Assembly (NCBI GenBank): GCA_902573755.1
Contig: CACGLD010000005.1
Span: 1 to 43,959 of the forward strand
Direction: 5' to 3'
Length of the DNA: 43,959 bases
DNA from: an uncultured Pelagibacteraceae bacterium
GTDB lineage: Bacteria > Pseudomonadota > Alphaproteobacteria > Pelagibacterales > Pelagibacteraceae
The notes below the pieces were generated by a model that saw nothing but the letters and a program-made list of their open reading frames with translations, was not told the DNA's origin and ran no database searches. Below, in pieces: positions 5,780 through 43,959 of the stretch. Position 1 is the first letter of the stretch; each line of letters begins with the position of its first letter. The translations under genes and the position numbers were made by a program.

Positions 5780-6604
5780 ATGGCAAAATATTTAGTTGAA
5801 ACTTATTATACATGCACCTTTAAGGTTAATCATTATCTAGATGATATTAACGAGGCAGAGTTAAAAAATTTAGAGAAGAGAGACGATGGAAAATTCGAAG
5901 TTTTAGATGTAAAACTTGATAACAGAAAAACGAAAAGCCTAGATCCTAAAAATAATAAAGTCTTGGAAAGCAACAAAGTAGAAGTAATTAAAGAGACAAA
6001 TAATAAAAGCTCAATAAATAAAGAAAGTGTAATAACAAGCATAAATACAACTAATGAAAAGTCGGGTAAAAGATTTAGCATGCCTGACAGAAGAAAAGGG
6101 TATATTCAAAAAGCTACTATTGGTGACCATAAAGTTTACCTGCATACAGGAGAATATGAAGACGGAAAAATTGGGGAAATATTTATTGATACCAGTAAAG
6201 AAGGTGAGCTTGTTAAAGCTTTAATGAATAATTTTGCAATTGCTGTTTCTCTAGGCCTTCAATATGGTGTTCCGTTAGATGAGTTTATAAGTGCATTTGT
6301 AGGTACAAAATTTGAACCATCTGGAAAAGTCCATGGTAATGATAGAATTTTAAGCGCCACATCAATTTTGGATTATATTTTCAGAGAATTAGCTATTTCA
6401 TATCAAAATAGAGAAGATCTAGCCCATACTCCGTCAATTGGAGGAAATGATGCCATCAGTGCAGAAGATCAAGGCTCTGAAGATCAAAATCAATTATTAA
6501 AAATTGTAAAAGATATTACTAGTAAAGGTTTTGTTAGAAATAATTATAAAAAAAATCTAGTTGATCTTTCGGATGTAAAAATAAATTTAAAAGGTAAAAA
6601 ATAA
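5780..6604 (+). CDS. Stand-alone NrdJ C-terminal (TSCPD/NrdJb-like) protein
   Basis: 274 residues. Residues about 103-217 match the C-terminal region found in B12-dependent class II ribonucleotide reductases (NrdJ): [78 protein letters not shown]. The N-terminus ([17 protein letters not shown], then [17 protein letters not shown]) is a separate conserved block joined by an Asn/Lys/Ser-rich linker (50-100). No catalytic NrdJ domain (radical Cys, finger loop) is present here or next door. Known relatives include split class II enzymes whose second chain (NrdJb) is a separate protein. Whether this one works with a reductase is unknown. It ends one base before convergent aspS. Confidence 0.75.
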
Positions 6605-6605
6605 G

Positions 6606-8390
6606 TTATTTTTTAGTTTTTAAAGCTAAATTTAATTCTTTCAATTGATCTGGATTTACCTCAGATGGTGCATTCATCATCAAATCTTGAGCGTTTTGAT
6701 TCATTGGAAACATAGTAACTTCCCTAATATTCTTCTCGTTAGCAAGTAACATTACGATTCTATCAATACCAGGTGCTATTCCTCCATGTGGTGGTGCGCC
6801 ATAACTAAGTGCATTAATCATGCCGCTAAATTTTTCATCTACTTGATTTTTATCATACCCTGCTATGGAGAAAAGTTTATACATAAGCTCTGGTTTATGA
6901 TTTCTAATTGCTCCTGAAGATAATTCTATACCATTACAAACTATGTCGTATTGATAAGCAAGTATATCTAATGGGTTTTCAAAATCTTTTTCACTTAAAT
7001 CGCCTTGAGGCATTGAAAATGGATTGTGACTAAATTGAATCTTGTTTGTTGATTCATCTTTTTCAAACATTGGATAGTCTACAATCCAGCAAAATGCGAA
7101 AACATTTTCATCAATTAAATCTAGATCTTTTGCAATTTTATCTCTTGCTAGAGCAGTAATTTTTTCTAATTCATCTTGTTTTCCACAAGCCATGAAAATA
7201 CTATCCCCTATTACACAGTTTGTTTTTTTCATGATTTCAGCTAATGCATCTTTAGAAAAGAATTTTCCTATAGGACCTTTTGCTGAAATATCTTTGTCTT
7301 TTTCAAAAGTAAAATAAGCTAAACCAGAAGCACCTTCTCCTTTTGCCCATTTATCAATATTATCAAAAAAACTTCTTGGCTTATCTTTCGTATTTTTTGT
7401 AATAATACATCTTACTTTAGATCCAGATTTTACTAATTTTTTAAATATTTCAAATGAAACATCTTCTCTCATAAAAATTTCAGTTATATCATTCACAATG
7501 AGCGGGTTTCTTAAATCTGGTTTATCAGTACCATATTTAAGCATTGCTTCCTTGTATGAAATCTTTGGAAATTTATCAAACAACAGTTTTTTAGTAGAAA
7601 AGTTTTTAAATGTATTAACCATTAACTTTTCAACAACATCAAATACATCCTCTTGTTCAACAAATGACATTTCCAAATCTAATTGATAAAACTCCCCTGG
7701 ACTTCTATCTGCTCTTGCATCTTCATCTCTAAAACAAGGTGCAATTTGAAAATATCTATCAAATCCAGAGACCATTATTAATTGTTTAAATTGTTGGGGG
7801 GCTTGAGGTAATGCATAAAATTTTCCTGGATTTAAACGACTAGGTACTAAAAAATCTCTTGCACCTTCTGGACTAGATGAGGTTAAAATTGGTGTTTGAA
7901 ATTCTAAAAAACCTAATTTAGTCATTTCATTTCGGATATATGAAATAACTTTAGATCTTAAAATAATATTTTCGTGAATTTTTTTTCTTCTTAAATCTAA
8001 AAATCTATATTTCAATCTTATTTCTTCAGCATACTCTTGATCGCTGAAGACTGGCATAGGCAGCTCTTTACAAGTTCCCAAAATTTCATATTTCTCAATA
8101 ACAACCTCTATTTCACCTGTATCAATTTCTGAATTAATTGTTTCTTTTGATCTGTTAACAACTTTTCCCTCGACTTTAATTACTGTTTCTAATTGCATTT
8201 TTTCTAAATCAGAAAAATATTTATTATCTTTGTCAATTATACATTGGGTAATTCCATAGTTATCTCTCAAATCAATGAATAATAAATTACCATGGTCTCT
8301 TTTTTTATTTATCCAACCTGCAAGAGAAATTTTTTTATCTACATGCTCTTTTTTTAATTCATTACACTTATGTGTTCTGTATTTATTCAA
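6606..8390 (-). CDS. aspS: Aspartyl-tRNA synthetase, bacterial type
   Basis: Charges tRNA-Asp, 594 residues. N-terminal OB anticodon-binding domain (about 1-110); class II core with YRFLDLRR (128-135), TPILTSSSPEGARDF, motif 2 CFRDEDARADRSPGEFYQLD (219-238) and motif 3 GGIAPGIDRIVMLL (536-549). The GAD insertion domain lies between motifs 2 and 3. Start is TTG at 8390, directly after the hdaA stop, supported by AGAGG five bases upstream. His33 in KKRDHGN resembles non-discriminating AspRS, which also charge tRNA-Asn; this is only a hint. Likely cotranscribed with hdaA. Confidence 0.96.
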   Translation of the reverse strand: MNKYRTHKCNELKKEHVDKKISLAGWINKKRDHGNLLFIDLRDNYGITQCIIDKDNKYFSDLEKMQLETVIKVEGKVVNRSKETINSEIDTGEIEVVIEKYEILGTCKELPMPVFSDQEYAEEIRLKYRFLDLRRKKIHENIILRSKVISYIRNEMTKLGFLEFQTPILTSSSPEGARDFLVPSRLNPGKFYALPQAPQQFKQLIMVSGFDRYFQIAPCFRDEDARADRSPGEFYQLDLEMSFVEQEDVFDVVEKLMVNTFKNFSTKKLLFDKFPKISYKEAMLKYGTDKPDLRNPLIVNDITEIFMREDVSFEIFKKLVKSGSKVRCIITKNTKDKPRSFFDNIDKWAKGEGASGLAYFTFEKDKDISAKGPIGKFFSKDALAEIMKKTNCVIGDSIFMACGKQDELEKITALARDKIAKDLDLIDENVFAFCWIVDYPMFEKDESTNKIQFSHNPFSMPQGDLSEKDFENPLDILAYQYDIVCNGIELSSGAIRNHKPELMYKLFSIAGYDKNQVDEKFSGMINALSYGAPPHGGIAPGIDRIVMLLANEKNIREVTMFPMNQNAQDLMMNAPSEVNPDQLKELNLALKTKK

Positions 8391-37209: not shown

Positions 37210-38221
37210 ATGAAAAAAGCACTTAACCTTGGAGTAATCGGAATAGATCATGGTCATATTTTCGATATGCTAGATGAAATGATCAAAGAAGGTTGTAGCT
37301 GTAATTACTTTTGGACAGATGGGGATCCTTTAACTCTTCAAGAATTTAATAAAAAATATCCAAATATTAAAAGAAAAGAAAATAAAGAGGAAATATTAAA
37401 TGACTCATCTATTGATATGATTTTAATATCTTCGATCCCTGTAGATAGAGCTGGTCATTCAATAGATGCATTAAAAGCCGGGAAAGATGTTATGGTAGAT
37501 AAACCAGGCTGTACTACGTTAGATCAGTTAAATAATTTGAAAAACACTGTTAAAGAAACTGGAAAAATATGGTCTGTAAATTTTTTCTGAAAGATTTCAC
37601 GTAGCTGCAGTTGCTAAAGCTGAAGAATTAGTCAATGAGGGAAAAATTGGTAAAGTAAAGCAAACGATTGGTACAGGTCCCCATAGACAGGGTAATTATG
37701 AAAGACCTGATTGGTTTTATAATCGTCAAAGTTATGGAGGAATTATTACCGATATTGGTTCCCACCAAATTCATCAATTTTTGGTTTTTACAAATTCAAA
37801 TCAAGCAAAAATCAACCATGCATTAGTAGAAAATACGACAAAGAAAGATATGCCTGGTTTTCAAGATTTTGGTGAAGTGAATCTTACTGGTAATGGTGGG
37901 CATGGCTATATTCGTCTTGATTGGTTTACTCCAGATGCCCTTCCAACCTGGGGAGATGGAAGATTGCTAATCCTTGGAGACAAAGGTTTTATTGAAATAA
38001 GAAAATATACAGATTTAGCAAAATCAGAAAAAGGTAATCATTTATTTTTAGCGAATAATGATGAAGTGAAACATATTGATTGTTCTAATGTTAAGCTACC
38101 CTACTTTAGAAATCTAATTAATGATATTTTAAACAGAACAGAAACTGCATGTCCTCAGGATCTTACTTATCTTTCAATGGAACTTGCTATTAAAGCTCAA
38201 GAGCAAGGTGAAAAAAAATGA
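37210..38221 (+). pseudogene. Gfo/Idh/MocA family oxidoreductase, frameshifted
   Basis: NAD(P)-dependent sugar/cyclitol-type dehydrogenase split by one extra T. The first frame, 37210-37590 (126 residues), has the Rossmann start LGVIGIDHGHIFDML and DVMVDKPGCTTLDQL, then stops at TGA 37588-37590 just after a run of six T (37581-37586). Removing one T gives WSVNFSERFHVAAVAKAEEL and continues without interruption to 38221, including DIGSHQIHQF and GEVNLTGNGGHGYIRLDWF. A later ATG at 37781 opens only the last 146 residues. The repaired protein is about 336 residues, normal for the family. Overlaps the next oxidoreductase by 4 bases (ATGA). Whether this is a true pseudogene or a read error cannot be decided here. 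Confidence 0.82.
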
Positions 38222-39778: not shown

Positions 39779-40006
39779 ATGAACAAAGAAAACGCAAGTA
39801 AACTTTGGAAAATTATTCAGGAAGCTGGCGATTATTTGGTGGGGCAATTACCTAACCACCCAAATCACCCAAAAGGAAGAAACCCCTATGCTCATGTTGC
39901 TATTTGTGTAAAAAGCAAATTCAATGCAAGTTACAAGGATATTCCTGATGAACAGTTTGATGAAGTGATAAAATATATTGAGTTTTTAAAAGAAAATCCT
40001 AGTTAG
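39779..40006 (+). CDS. Uncharacterised 75-residue protein
   Basis: Short soluble protein with a His/Pro/Asn-rich centre (LPNHPNHPKGRNPYAHV) followed by a conserved-looking helix pair, FNASYKDIPDEQFDEVIKYI. The last part resembles the YKDIP...F..VI.YI pattern seen at the end of some phage-type regulators, but the DNA-binding part of those is absent, so I make no functional call. It lies 11 bases after the 155-residue gene and overlaps convergent ltaE by 8 bases. Confidence 0.6.
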   Translation: MNKENASKLWKIIQEAGDYLVGQLPNHPNHPKGRNPYAHVAICVKSKFNASYKDIPDEQFDEVIKYIEFLKENPS

Positions 40007-41048
40007 CTTTAATTGTATTTAACAATTCATCAACATCACTATCTTTAGTATTCCAAGCAGCAACTAATCTTACCGCTTTTCCATCTAATTCTTCTTCATT
40101 CATTTTGTAACCTTCAGAATTTAGATGTTCTATTTTTTCTCTTGGAAATTTTGCAAATACTTCATTTGCTTCAGTTGGGTAAGCAATTTCAATATCATTA
40201 TGCTTACTTAACCCTTCACTTAACTTTTTACCCATTGCATTAGCATGCTTTGCATTTCTCATCCAAACATCATTTGAAATGTAAGCATCGAGTTGAGCAG
40301 AGACAAAACGCATTTTAGATAACAGATGCCCTGCTCGTTTCATTAAAAATGCAATGTCCCCTACTAATTCTTTCTTAAAAAAAATGATTGCTTCAGCTGC
40401 CAGACATCCATTTTTAGTTGCTCCAAATGACAAGACATCAACCCCAGATTTCCAAGTCATTTCAGCAGGAGTTACATCTAAAGATACCAATGCATTAGCA
40501 AATCTAGCGCCATCCATATGTAAATTTAGACTATGTTTATGAGTGATTTCTGCAATTTTTTTAATTTCATCTAATTGATAAACTTCACCTGTTTCACACA
40601 CTTGAGTAATGCTAACTGATGAAGGTTGTGTATGATGAACAATTCCTTTTCCACCTATTGATTGATCCAACTCATCTGAAGTTATTTTTCCCATTATTCC
40701 ATTTAAAGGAACTAACTTTCCTCCCCCTGTATAAAATTCAGGTGCACCACATTCATCAGTATTTATATGGGACATCTTATGACAATAAATGTTTCCATAA
40801 GAAGGTGTCATTGTAGATAATGCTAAAGCATTAGCTGCAGTACCTGAGGCAGTCGGAAAAACAATTACTTCTTTTTCAAAGATTTCTGAAAACTTATCTT
40901 GTAATTCAGTTGATATTGGGTCATTCCCATAAGGTGTGCTATCTCCTTCATTGGCTTTTAAAATTGCATCCAATACCTCGGGACAAGCACCAGCAACATT
41001 ATCAGAAGCGAATTTAACTCGCTCTCTTTTTATTTTAATTTTTGCCAT
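39999..41048 (-). CDS. ltaE: Low-specificity L-threonine aldolase
   Basis: PLP enzyme cleaving threonine or allo-threonine to glycine and acetaldehyde. 349 residues: FASDNVAGACPEVLDAI at the N-terminus, YGNDPISTELQ, PTASGTAANALAL, LNLHMDGARFANAL (Asp179), and PLP Lys212 in SFGATKNGCLAAEA. Last gene of a tight minus-strand operon, 2 bases after the amidinotransferase. There is no room for a leader regulator such as a glycine riboswitch directly in front of it. Convergent with the 75-residue gene (8-base overlap). Confidence 0.92.
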   Translation of the reverse strand: MAKIKIKRERVKFASDNVAGACPEVLDAILKANEGDSTPYGNDPISTELQDKFSEIFEKEVIVFPTASGTAANALALSTMTPSYGNIYCHKMSHINTDECGAPEFYTGGGKLVPLNGIMGKITSDELDQSIGGKGIVHHTQPSSVSITQVCETGEVYQLDEIKKIAEITHKHSLNLHMDGARFANALVSLDVTPAEMTWKSGVDVLSFGATKNGCLAAEAIIFFKKELVGDIAFLMKRAGHLLSKMRFVSAQLDAYISNDVWMRNAKHANAMGKKLSEGLSKHNDIEIAYPTEANEVFAKFPREKIEHLNSEGYKMNEEELDGKAVRLVAAWNTKDSDVDELLNTIKAN

Positions 41049-41050
41049 AA

Positions 41051-42166
41051 TTATTGTTTTGGAAAGTAATCTTTAAGCTCACCCTCTCGGTAAACATCTG
41101 CAGTACAGCAGTGTAAACCTCCACCAAAAGCGTAGGCATCTCTAAGCTCTACGGGTATAACTTCCATTCCTAATTTATCTAATTGTTCAGCTTGGTATTT
41201 TTCACTTTTTTCCACACATACAGTTTTGGGATCTAAAACTAAAACATTCATTGATAGCCAAGTTGATGAATAACATAACGGTGGTGGTTCGTTATGTGCT
41301 GGTTGTGCACTGTCTACAATTTCCCAGCCATTATCTTCAAATAATTTTCTTTGTTCCTTAGGAAGTCTTCTTTGTGGGTTATTGATAATTAAACCTTCTT
41401 TAATTGGGGTAAAAGTTGCATCAATGTGAATTGGATAAGGATCACCTGGAAAATTAAATGCATGAACTCTGTGATCTTTATAATGTCTCTTTAACCAATC
41501 AATTCCTTTTAAATTTGTTGTAAAACCATGTTGAACAACTAAATCTTTACCAAATCTTAATACGTCCGCTGCATCAAATAATGGTTCTTCTTCAGTGGTT
41601 ACAAAATATTTTTTTTCAGTCCATTCTAATCTTTTTTGAACGCCAATTTTATCTGATAAATAATCTTTTCTATAATCTGTATCCGTTAATCTTGGCTTTG
41701 GAGCAGACTCGTGTCTCATGTTAGGATCTTGATTATAATAATCTTTTAGAAGTGGTCGGTAACATAAATATTCAAACCAACGACAACGATAACTCATTGT
41801 AGCTTCTAAAATTTCGTTTCCTACTGTTAACAAAACATCTCTTGGAGGCATACAGCCAAACATGGTTTCTGCTTCCCAATCAGGTGTAGATGTTTTTTGA
41901 TTAAAATCTATTGGTGTTGGTCGATCAACTTTAATACCTCTTTTTTGAAGCATATTTGAAAAGTTATCTAATAATTCATTTGCCTTATCTACAGTGTCTT
42001 TAGTTCTTGGACCAAACTGACCCCGCATATCACTATCTTCAGGAACTTTAGCGTCTAATGCTGGCTCTGGTGCCGGTATACAAGTACCATCTGCTCTCCC
42101 AACAATTACATGTTTTAATGGATCCCACTCGTTCCAACTATTAACAATAGTTTTATTCTCACTCAT
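41051..42166 (-). CDS. Glycine amidinotransferase-like enzyme (AGAT family)
   Basis: 371 residues, close in pattern to arginine:glycine amidinotransferase, which moves an amidino group from arginine to glycine to give guanidinoacetate and ornithine (reversible). Start NEWDPLKHVIVGRADG; catalytic set Asp198 (LFDAADVLRFGKD), His247 (PIHIDATF) and Cys353 (FGGGLHCCTADV); WLSMNVLVLD also conserved. In the human enzyme the loop before the His reads NPM-HIDA; here it is YPI, so the acceptor may not be glycine. Five bases after creatinase and 2 before ltaE. The amidinotransferase class is firm, the acceptor is not. Confidence 0.85.
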   Translation of the reverse strand: MSENKTIVNSWNEWDPLKHVIVGRADGTCIPAPEPALDAKVPEDSDMRGQFGPRTKDTVDKANELLDNFSNMLQKRGIKVDRPTPIDFNQKTSTPDWEAETMFGCMPPRDVLLTVGNEILEATMSYRCRWFEYLCYRPLLKDYYNQDPNMRHESAPKPRLTDTDYRKDYLSDKIGVQKRLEWTEKKYFVTTEEEPLFDAADVLRFGKDLVVQHGFTTNLKGIDWLKRHYKDHRVHAFNFPGDPYPIHIDATFTPIKEGLIINNPQRRLPKEQRKLFEDNGWEIVDSAQPAHNEPPPLCYSSTWLSMNVLVLDPKTVCVEKSEKYQAEQLDKLGMEVIPVELRDAYAFGGGLHCCTADVYREGELKDYFPKQ

Positions 42167-42171
42167 AAAGA

Positions 42172-43389
42172 TTAGTTTTTTATAATATTATGCTCAGGAC
42201 CAAAAGGAAATTTTGTAATATTTTCTACTCCATCTTTGCCTATTACCAAAATATCATGTTCTCTATATCCACCTGCACCAGGATTACGTTCTGGGATCAT
42301 GATCATTGGCTCCATAGACACCACCATATTTTCTTCAAGAACAGTATCAATATCTTCTCTTAATTCTAAACCAGCTTCTCTTCCATAAAAGTGTGAAAGC
42401 ATACCAAATGAATGTCCGTAACCAAATGTTCGATACTGAAGGTAACCAAGCTCAGCAAAAAGTTCGTTAAGCTCATGACAAATATCAGAACATTTAACAC
42501 CTGGTTTAATTAATTCTAATCCTCTTTTATGAACTTTAACATTTGCCTCCCAAGCTTTAAGAGAAGCATCATCGGCATGATCTAAAAATAAAGTTCTCTC
42601 TAGTGCAGTGTAGTAACCTGAGATCATTGGAAAAGTATTTAAAGATAAAATATCTCCTTTGACTAATTTTCTATTAGTCTTTGGATTGTGAGCTCCGTCT
42701 GTATTGATACCCGATTGAAACCATACCCAAGTGTCCATATATTCAGCACCAGGATAGCTTTTAACAATCTCTCTTTCCATTCTATCTCTAGCTGCAATTG
42801 CTACTTCGATCTCCGTATTATCTTCTCTTATATTTTTAACTATTTCTTCACCACCAATGTCTGCAATTCTTGCACCATTTCTAATGATCTCAATTTCTTC
42901 GTTCGATTTAATCATTCTAAGTTTCATTAAATCTTTTGAAACATCACTAAATACTGAGAAAGTAAAAATAGAACCTATTTTTTCTCGCATATCTAATGTG
43001 ACATGATCATTTTCAATTCCAATATTTTTTGGAGGCTCATCTCTTCCAATAATTGAAACAATGGCTCTTAAAAAATTATCTCTTTTCCAATCAGTATAAA
43101 TTACGTTATCACAATGAGATCTACGCCATGGTTGACTTGCATCAATGTTAGCTGAAATTGTTGAGATTTTATTTTGAGTGATAACACATCCGTATGGTCT
43201 ACCAAAAGAACAATAAATAAAACCTGTGTAATATGCAACGTTATGCATTGAGGTTAAGATAACCATATCAAGACCATTTTGGTCCATCACTGATCTAAGT
43301 TTACTTACTCGATCGTTATATTCTTTATCTGTAAATGGTAATTTTACTTTTTCACCGTTTTTAAGTTCAAAAAAATCTGGCCGTTCCAT
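42172..43389 (-). CDS. creA: Creatinase (creatine amidinohydrolase)
   Basis: Hydrolyses creatine to sarcosine and urea; M24 'pita-bread' fold without metal. 405 residues with very close similarity, as I recall it, to Pseudomonas creatinase along the whole length: YCSFGRPYGCVIT, SANIDASQPWRR, DTWVWFQSGINTDGAHNP, GYYTALERTLFLDH, FGYGHSFGMLSHFYGREAGL, GAGGYREHDI. All active-site residues are present: Arg64, His234, Tyr260, Glu264, Arg337, Glu360 and His378. Guanidinoacetate or another guanidino compound is a possible alternative substrate. One base after the DMT permease stop and 5 bases before the amidinotransferase. Confidence 0.92.
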   Translation of the reverse strand: MERPDFFELKNGEKVKLPFTDKEYNDRVSKLRSVMDQNGLDMVILTSMHNVAYYTGFIYCSFGRPYGCVITQNKISTISANIDASQPWRRSHCDNVIYTDWKRDNFLRAIVSIIGRDEPPKNIGIENDHVTLDMREKIGSIFTFSVFSDVSKDLMKLRMIKSNEEIEIIRNGARIADIGGEEIVKNIREDNTEIEVAIAARDRMEREIVKSYPGAEYMDTWVWFQSGINTDGAHNPKTNRKLVKGDILSLNTFPMISGYYTALERTLFLDHADDASLKAWEANVKVHKRGLELIKPGVKCSDICHELNELFAELGYLQYRTFGYGHSFGMLSHFYGREAGLELREDIDTVLEENMVVSMEPMIMIPERNPGAGGYREHDILVIGKDGVENITKFPFGPEHNIIKN

Positions 43390-43390
43390 A

Positions 43391-43959
43391 TTAGTTTAAT
43401 GCTATGTATCTTTTGTTCCATCTCATTATTAAACTGTAATAAAATATAGATACGAAAAGAAAAAAACCACCGATTATAGTATTTGCGGATGGTACTTCAT
43501 TAATTCCAAATAATGGCAGCCAAACCCAAAAAATTCCTCCTACAACTTCAGTTAAAGATAATAGAGTCAATTCTGCTGCTGGTATCGCTTTAGATCCAAT
43601 TGAATATAAAATTAATCCAAAACACACTAACGTCCCATGCAAAGAAAACAAAGTTCCATTATAGCTAGATGAAAAGAAAACTAAGTTGTTTGATAAAATC
43701 ATAATTGTCGCAAAAACAAAACAAAAGAAACCAGCAAAAGCTACAGTTGTAAATTTTGGTGTTTCTTTTCTCCATCTAAGCGTTACAGAAAAAACTGAGA
43801 AACCAATTGAAGAAGTTAAACCAAATACAAAACCAATTAATGATTTTTCTCCAGTATTTCCAAGTGCCATAATAATAATACCAACTGTTGCAATTATTAT
43901 TGATATCCACACGTTAAGAGAAATTTTTTCTTTTAAAAATAAAAATGCCAATAATGCTG
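43391..43959 (-). CDS. DMT-superfamily permease (EamA family), 5' end outside window
   Basis: C-terminal part of a ten-helix drug/metabolite-type permease; the frame is open to the window edge (reads ALLAFLFLKEKISLNVW), so the TTG at 43951 is not a start. About 189 residues are visible: the last helix of the first EamA repeat plus the second repeat (IGSKAIPAAELTLLSLTEVVGG, WVWLPLFGINEVPS). It is the first visible gene of the operon with creatinase, amidinotransferase and threonine aldolase, separated from creatinase by one base, so it may carry creatine, another guanidino compound or a product. Direction and substrate are not shown. Confidence 0.85.
   Translation of the reverse strand, partial: ALLAFLFLKEKISLNVWISIIIATVGIIIMALGNTGEKSLIGFVFGLTSSIGFSVFSVTLRWRKETPKFTTVAFAGFFCFVFATIMILSNNLVFFSSSYNGTLFSLHGTLVCFGLILYSIGSKAIPAAELTLLSLTEVVGGIFWVWLPLFGINEVPSANTIIGGFFLFVSIFYYSLIMRWNKRYIALN

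Follow-up and report, generated by a model that had tools for sequence, protein, structure and literature searches.

We identified a putative locus for guanidino and amino-acid metabolism in a 43,959-nucleotide window, the entire contig CACGLD010000005.1 of an uncultured Pelagibacteraceae bacterium (assembly GCA_902573755.1; 0.94 Mb, 69% complete). The locus is built on a core in which a DMT-type permease is closely spaced with an arginine:glycine-type amidinotransferase (AGAT), and in some strains it also carries a creatinase, a threonine-type aldolase or both. Our preferred but tentative interpretation is that it serves the salvage of guanidino acids and glycine in SAR11 bacteria, through reactions that would meet at glycine.

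In the window, four minus-strand open reading frames (ORFs) follow one another in the order permease, creatinase, AGAT and aldolase with gaps of 1, 5 and 2 bases, a layout that an earlier reading of the sequence alone had described and that the ORF coordinates bear out. The core genes encode the C-terminal 188 residues of a DMT/EamA-type permease (positions 43391-43957, open at the window end) and an AGAT of 371 amino acids (41051-42166). The accessory genes encode a creatinase (creatine amidinohydrolase) of 405 amino acids (42172-43389) and an L-threonine/phenylserine-type aldolase of 349 amino acids that depends on pyridoxal 5′-phosphate (PLP) (39999-41048). Because this arrangement recurs in many relatives, it is not due to chance.

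To place the locus among its relatives we surveyed 158 Pelagibacterales genomes, consisting of the genome of the window and others that are at least 85% complete; genomes and loci are cited below by G and L handles, and the presence sets behind all co-occurrence counts of creatinase, aldolase, permease and urease were compiled by hand. An AGAT relative occurs in 122 of the 158 genomes: 105 of the 114 from the genus of the window, 17 of the 18 from family f2 and none of the 26 from five other genera. The AGAT of the operon is present in 104 of the genus genomes, and the 105th (G054) has an AGAT paralogue instead. An orthologous permease is found in the same 105 genus genomes. It adjoins AGAT in 103 of the 104 with the operon AGAT (in G079 the two are on different contigs), and it lies within three genes of AGAT in all 73 loci with at least 1.3 kb upstream among the 80 named loci, which are the best 80 of 586 AGAT relatives. 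All nine genus genomes without AGAT also lack the permease. Assembly gaps may explain part of these nine, given the aldolase fragment found where a contig of G150 starts and the partial aldolase of G105. In G054, which no longer has the operon AGAT, the permease gene adjoins that of the aldolase (L182 7868-9878). Outside the genus, permease matches are more distant (44–61% identity), and those in family f2 are on other contigs than AGAT.

The two accessory genes come and go around this core. Creatinase, counted as present at 80% identity or more (a threshold of E 0.001 would give 141 of 158 genomes through other M24 proteins), occurs in 41 of the 158 genomes; 40 of these belong to the genus, and all 40 have it beside AGAT. 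Aldolase occurs in 52 of the 158 genomes. Of these, 49 also have the operon AGAT, and in 48 the two genes are adjacent; the exception, G095, carries aldolase on a separate contig. The remaining three (G054, G105 and G150) have no operon AGAT. The places of the two genes are therefore nearly fixed (creatinase slot, 40/40; aldolase slot, 48/49). Their occurrence is statistically independent: in the 104 genomes with the operon AGAT, 20 have both, 20 creatinase only, 29 aldolase only and 35 neither (p 0.69). An AGAT tree of 92 loci requires at least 7 changes in the presence of creatinase and at least 11 in that of aldolase; these are minima on one quick single-gene DNA tree, and recombination can inflate them. 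The sequence-only reading had proposed one four-gene module and had named an absence of linkage in relatives as evidence against it. We find the linkage to be strongly conserved, as a permease–AGAT core with creatinase and aldolase as independent add-ons rather than as a unit of four.

Between creatinase and AGAT, L045 carries a further gene for a 570-amino-acid protein with tetratricopeptide repeats and a sulfotransferase domain (6296-8008), which is found at the same place in L054. In L018 (10161-10388) and many other loci, a conserved ORF of some 75 amino acids, for which Pfam gives no match, follows AGAT or aldolase in convergent orientation. The genes past aldolase vary among loci.

In the mechanism that we propose, AGAT would move an amidino group from arginine to glycine or in the reverse direction, from guanidinoacetate to ornithine, giving arginine and glycine. 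Where creatinase occupies the slot between permease and AGAT, it would convert creatine to sarcosine and urea; sarcosine would then yield glycine and a one-carbon unit, the oxidation of which the neighbouring formate dehydrogenase could finish. Where the threonine-type aldolase lies behind AGAT, it would split threonine into glycine and acetaldehyde. Glycine or sarcosine appears on one side of each of the three enzyme reactions, and these are also the compounds towards which both optional enzymes lead. The earlier idea of glycine supply accordingly fits, although it has to be carried by a core with add-ons and not by a single module. The substrates of the enzymes are inferred, and we further propose that the permease would take up guanidino acids, that AGAT would work in the direction of glycine and that glycine would be the shared product under selection. 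The firmest of these functional proposals concerns the permease, which would handle either a substrate of AGAT or one of its products, since the two genes stay together even where creatinase and aldolase are missing. Creatinase, as an inserted gene, points to guanidinoacetate-like compounds. Elsewhere, too, AGAT is sometimes near genes of glycine or creatine metabolism, such as the creatinase of L201 and the neighbours of the G054 paralogue described below.

By sequence comparison, the identity of the creatinase is secure. It scores 534 bits to 1chm and 531 bits to 7yto, known creatinases (EC 3.5.3.3), and 234 of 398 aligned residues are identical to 1chm (59%); of the other M24 proteins, the best dipeptidase reaches 93 bits and the ectoine hydrolase 6twj (DoeA) 47 bits. 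Arg64, His234, Glu264, His326, Arg337, Glu360 and His378 (window numbering), at the positions that we take to be the catalytic residues of Pseudomonas putida creatinase, are identical in the window protein and 1chm, as expected from the earlier claim of a complete catalytic set. Unlike 1chm and 7yto, the window enzyme sits in a SAR11 operon with AGAT. Two other readings of this M24 gene were rejected: the dimethylsulfoniopropionate lyase DddP (32.7 bits, against a model cut-off of 600) and ectoine hydrolase, the score of which is far under that of creatinase. The enzyme is common more widely: in a set of 289 alphaproteobacterial genomes, 38 have a creatinase, 3 of them Pelagibacteraceae.

Among solved structures, AGAT matches human AGAT best (294 bits), followed by SxtG (221), HsvA (213) and inosamine-phosphate amidinotransferase (178); its closest named matches are Pelagibacteraceae. 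The window protein keeps Asp110, Asp198, His247, Asp249 and Cys353, as well as Arg266, Ser300 and Ser301. In human numbering these are Asp170, Asp254, His303, Asp305, Cys407, Arg322, Ser354 and Ser355, and all 103 distinct SAR11 operon AGATs keep them. We take the first five to be the catalytic set, so that the Asp/His/Cys set noted earlier extends to every operon sequence, and Arg322 and Ser355 (window Arg266 and Ser301) presumably bind the amino-acid carboxylate, as in structural work on human AGAT. The retention of Arg322 and Ser355 makes an amino-acid substrate pair likely, although the acceptor pocket differs from that of the human enzyme. In the specificity-loop stretch Tyr244-Pro-Ile246-His247-Ile-Asp249 (YPIHID; 41420-41437, minus strand), the counterpart of human Asn300-Pro-Met302-His303-Ile-Asp305, Tyr and Ile replace Asn300 and Met302, a change that the earlier note did not remark on. 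The Tyr/Ile state is found in 103/103 distinct SAR11 operon sequences, 5/5 sequences of a SAR11 paralogue (which carry Tyr at human position 354) and 8/8 from family f14, and in 4/5 from family f2 at each of the two positions. At these two positions SxtG carries Glu/Leu; it also has Phe in place of Arg322 but keeps Ser355. L120, which is 64% identical, has Phe/Ser, and the Photobacterium relative L193 also varies at these positions. Phe/Ser is presumably the state in the glycine-using CyrA; positions 300 and 302 would therefore vary among glycine enzymes and may not define a class.

Human GATM (1jdw), and presumably CyrA, thus share with SAR11 AGAT the catalytic Asp/His/Cys set, Arg322 and Ser354/Ser355. 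Unlike human GATM, the SAR11 enzyme has Tyr/Ile for Asn300/Met302, is bacterial and is paired with a permease, and the SAR11 operon, the part of these genomes searched for it, has no creatine-synthesis methyltransferase.

The aldolase gives a near full-length match to aldolase 1v72 (365 bits) and L-threonine aldolase 5vye (281 bits) and matches PF01212 with 198 bits. Its Lys212, within SFGATKNG, aligns with the lysine of 1v72 and is presumably the PLP lysine that the sequence-only reading had pointed out. Its best structural relative, 1v72, is named only 'Aldolase', and the window protein falls short of the NCBIfam cut-offs for both the LtaE-type and the GntG model. The creatinase, AGAT and threonine-type aldolase assignments hold at family level. 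The permease lacks 113 N-terminal residues because contig and window end there; it matches residues 114-301 of the 301-amino-acid L018 orthologue at 97%. That full-length orthologue reaches 65.9 bits to Pfam EamA (cut-off 28.2), whereas the truncated window copy alone, at 20.3 bits, fails. The more specific permease model TIGR00950 scores 50.9 against a cut-off of 230.

The immediate upstream neighbours of the locus are formate dehydrogenase genes; in the flanks of L003-L082, this spot holds either a molybdenum-type set or an NAD-type enzyme (gene names were checked on one locus per flank type). Flanks were counted in the 63 loci whose upstream sequence extends for 5.5 kb or more. Creatinase is present in 33 of them, and each of these carries moeA immediately ahead of the permease; of the other 30, 28 have the NAD-type formate dehydrogenase and lack moeA. 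In 5 of the 63 loci, all of them among the 33 with creatinase, moeA is accompanied by the NAD type. Where mobA-moeA is present, the order mobA-moeA-permease-creatinase-AGAT-aldolase runs on one strand with median gaps of -8, 49, 1, 5 and 2 bases. Against its NCBIfam model, the NAD-type formate dehydrogenase scores 667 (cut-off 329), and FdhD exceeds one of two cut-offs; for MoeA, MobA and a NuoF/FdsB-like subunit, the best matches stay under the cut-off. We do not use the association of creatinase with moeA (33/33 versus 2/30) as independent evidence, since it largely follows the tree. The molybdenum-type flank resembles the gene order of the fdhF-fdsB-fdhD-mobA-moeA cluster described for HTCC1062 (PMC3160333), and the SAR11 one-carbon and betaine-to-glycine pathway in the available text of that paper would take sarcosine and one-carbon units to formate dehydrogenase. 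Unlike the locus described here, that available main text contains no word starting with creatin- or amidino-.

Several observations weigh against our interpretation. Creatinase is absent from 64 of the 104 genomes that keep the operon AGAT, which makes AGAT independent of creatine. The 41st creatinase, in a family f2 genome (G006; L195 2205-3422, 83% identical to that of the window), stands apart from AGAT, so the creatinase gene also moves alone, and the AGATs of family f2 have no permease beside them. Carriers of the DMT family are more often exporters than importers. The acceptor pocket of AGAT differs from that of human AGAT at the two loop positions, which suggests that glycine is not assured as its acceptor. 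In the flank, moeA occurs without creatinase in 2 of the 63 loci, and L186 and L189, outside that count, combine creatinase and the NAD type but lack moeA. The link between the two genes largely tracks the tree, and independent pairs are too few for a statistical test. No Rfam family, including the glycine riboswitch, reaches its gathering threshold in the window or in L018, L038, L065, L075, L147 and L051, and glycine-riboswitch control of the operon was rejected as a candidate. A strong urease-alpha match (E <1e-50; at E 0.001 the count is 33 of 158, the remainder weak and partial) occurs in only 17 of the 158 genomes and 12 of the 41 with creatinase, and it was not found in the 69%-complete genome of the window. 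Because urease is mostly not found, urea would often be a loss. Finally, a SoxB-type subunit (TIGR01373, above cut-off), which would support the step from sarcosine to glycine, is present in 135 of the 158 genomes, including that of the window (G000) and all 41 with creatinase, but this subunit may belong to N-methylglutamate dehydrogenase rather than sarcosine oxidase, according to the available text of PMC3160333.

Urease and creatinase are associated within the genus (12/28/1/63, p 3e-5; 12 of the 13 genus genomes with urease have creatinase). We rejected this association as independent evidence, as it comes mostly from one clade close to the window.

Relatives of AGAT outside SAR11 are scattered. 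Of 397 genomes drawn from across the phylum, 18, including that of the window, have one; eight belong to family f14, suspected to be Rhodobacteraceae, at 77–80% identity. In a draw of one genome per genus from that family, 17 of 100 have one. We found no constant partner of AGAT in 24 f14 loci, where the search covered our own query set and clusters of at least four loci; gene calls in this GC-rich DNA are rough and include long spurious ORFs. Single f14 loci have suggestive neighbours: a creatinase (60% identical) with one gene between it and AGAT in L201, a dimethylglycine-dehydrogenase-like gene in L205 and, in L132, a ureohydrolase ORF that ends 14 bases before the AGAT ORF, or about 60 bases if AGAT starts like the SAR11 protein. 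The only match on a viral contig (L178) covers 16 residues, and phage-borne AGAT was not accepted. Plasmid records H1 and H2 have no annotation at the place of AGAT.

Within SAR11, a second AGAT (75–77% identical) occurs in G136, G030, G028 and G124 (L179 5609-15589, L180, L145 and L181). In the longer of these loci it is accompanied by TauD-like, PhnZ/TmpB-like HD-oxygenase, BetA-like, EamA-type, 2-oxoglutarate-oxygenase, luciferase-like and Xsc/acetolactate-synthase-like genes. The EamA-type genes follow the second AGAT in all four genomes and belong to another subfamily than the operon permease. The G054 paralogue (L146 3433-11513) lies beside GbcA-like Rieske, SoxA/GcvT-like, BHMT-like and DddP-like genes, of which the first three are under their model cut-offs. 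Distant amidinotransferase relatives (28–30%) with other loop residues are found at L190 8109-9281 (G082), L191 6570-7754 (G080) and L192 7933-9033 (G060).

The alternative that survives best, although we consider it somewhat unlikely, is that AGAT runs forward, from arginine and glycine to ornithine and guanidinoacetate, and that the permease exports guanidinoacetate or another product. This would dispose of surplus arginine nitrogen or make ornithine without urea; aldolase would supply the glycine, and creatinase would be a separate passenger. The near-constant pairing of permease and AGAT agrees with it, as do the export habit of DMT carriers and the recurrence of EamA-type genes behind the second AGAT, albeit of another subfamily. 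Yet export of a nitrogen-rich compound would be odd for an oligotroph, and so would the consumption of glycine in SAR11, a group that needs glycine or serine; the entry of creatinase into this very operon would be left unexplained.

The opposite direction gives a more specific form of the salvage that we prefer, and in this exact form it seems unlikely. The permease would import guanidinoacetate (perhaps creatine), and AGAT, run backwards, would pass the amidino group to ornithine, forming arginine and freeing glycine (or sarcosine). Nitrogen would be kept, and creatinase and aldolase would be strain-specific taps into the same glycine pool. If this were true, cells that mostly lack urease would thereby retain nitrogen that the creatinase route would give off as urea.

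It is improbable that the locus replaces arginase, an alternative that the sequence-only reading had also raised. In such a cycle AGAT would make guanidinoacetate, and creatinase or an unlinked ureohydrolase would return glycine and urea, with glycine acting catalytically. The cycle could exist without this creatinase: because 64 of the 104 genomes lack it, most would need another hydrolase, and creatinases are not known to use guanidinoacetate well. A candidate is the ureohydrolase that we tallied by eye (more than 300 bits, with PF00491) in 113 of the 158 genomes: 99 of 114 in the genus, 14 of 18 in family f2 and none of the 26 from the five genera in which AGAT is likewise absent. In G000 (L170 14044-15003), its closest solved relatives are 3-guanidinopropionase and guanidinobutyrase. 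That gene, however, is on another contig than AGAT, with an aldehyde dehydrogenase gene immediately after it and, 3.7 kb ahead of it, a potABCD-like set, which itself follows an ectoine-hydrolase-like M24 gene (452 bits, cut-off 613), and no ureohydrolase is linked to AGAT in the SAR11 loci read. Nor are the two associated within the genus, because all nine AGAT-negative genomes have ureohydrolase and all 15 ureohydrolase-negative genomes have AGAT. The adjacency in L132 would favour the cycle, but its hydrolase is only 35% identical to the SAR11 ureohydrolase and closest to Deinococcus agmatinase, and the pairing occurs in 1 of the 24 f14 loci. The rarity of urease also speaks against a route that ends in urea.

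We equally doubt that AGAT uses an acceptor other than glycine to form another guanidino product and that the operon is a hot-spot mosaic whose genes were acquired independently and serve no single pathway: the exceptionless Tyr/Ile of the SAR11 operon sequences, the independence of creatinase and aldolase, the variable genes past aldolase, the TauD-, PhnZ-, BetA- and Xsc-like company of the paralogue and the solitary creatinase of L195 would fit this, but a random hot spot would not be expected to fill the same slots repeatedly, the presumed carboxylate-binding residues are kept and the CyrA-like Phe/Ser of L120 argues against reading the loop as a mark of another acceptor.

Beyond the operon, the window contains a Gfo/Idh/MocA-type gene in two pieces (37210-37590 and 37781-38221; 126 and 146 amino acids). 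Its counterpart in L003 and L018 is a single ORF of 336 amino acids, so that the window copy is either a broken gene or an assembly error.

Creatinase in SAR11 has already been published and creatine use proposed: as far as its accessible text goes, PMC3686209 gives creatinase among the core clusters of SAR11 SG1a and reports creatine-to-glycine enzymes to be enriched in the Red Sea. The accessible parts of other papers describe the AEGEAN169 group with creatine use (PMC11366302) and, in work on ocean viral genes, guanidinoacetate N-methyltransferase in Arctic viruses (PMC11360552). In the open-licence literature searched, we found no report of a SAR11 amidinotransferase or of the core AGAT–permease pair.

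SAR11 bacteria are among the most abundant in the ocean and have small genomes. A permease–AGAT pair in 104 of 114 genomes of a genus, with fixed slots for creatinase and aldolase, implies a routine role for guanidino compounds in their nitrogen and glycine economy. Judging from its genes, the locus may help SAR11 to obtain glycine from guanidino compounds.

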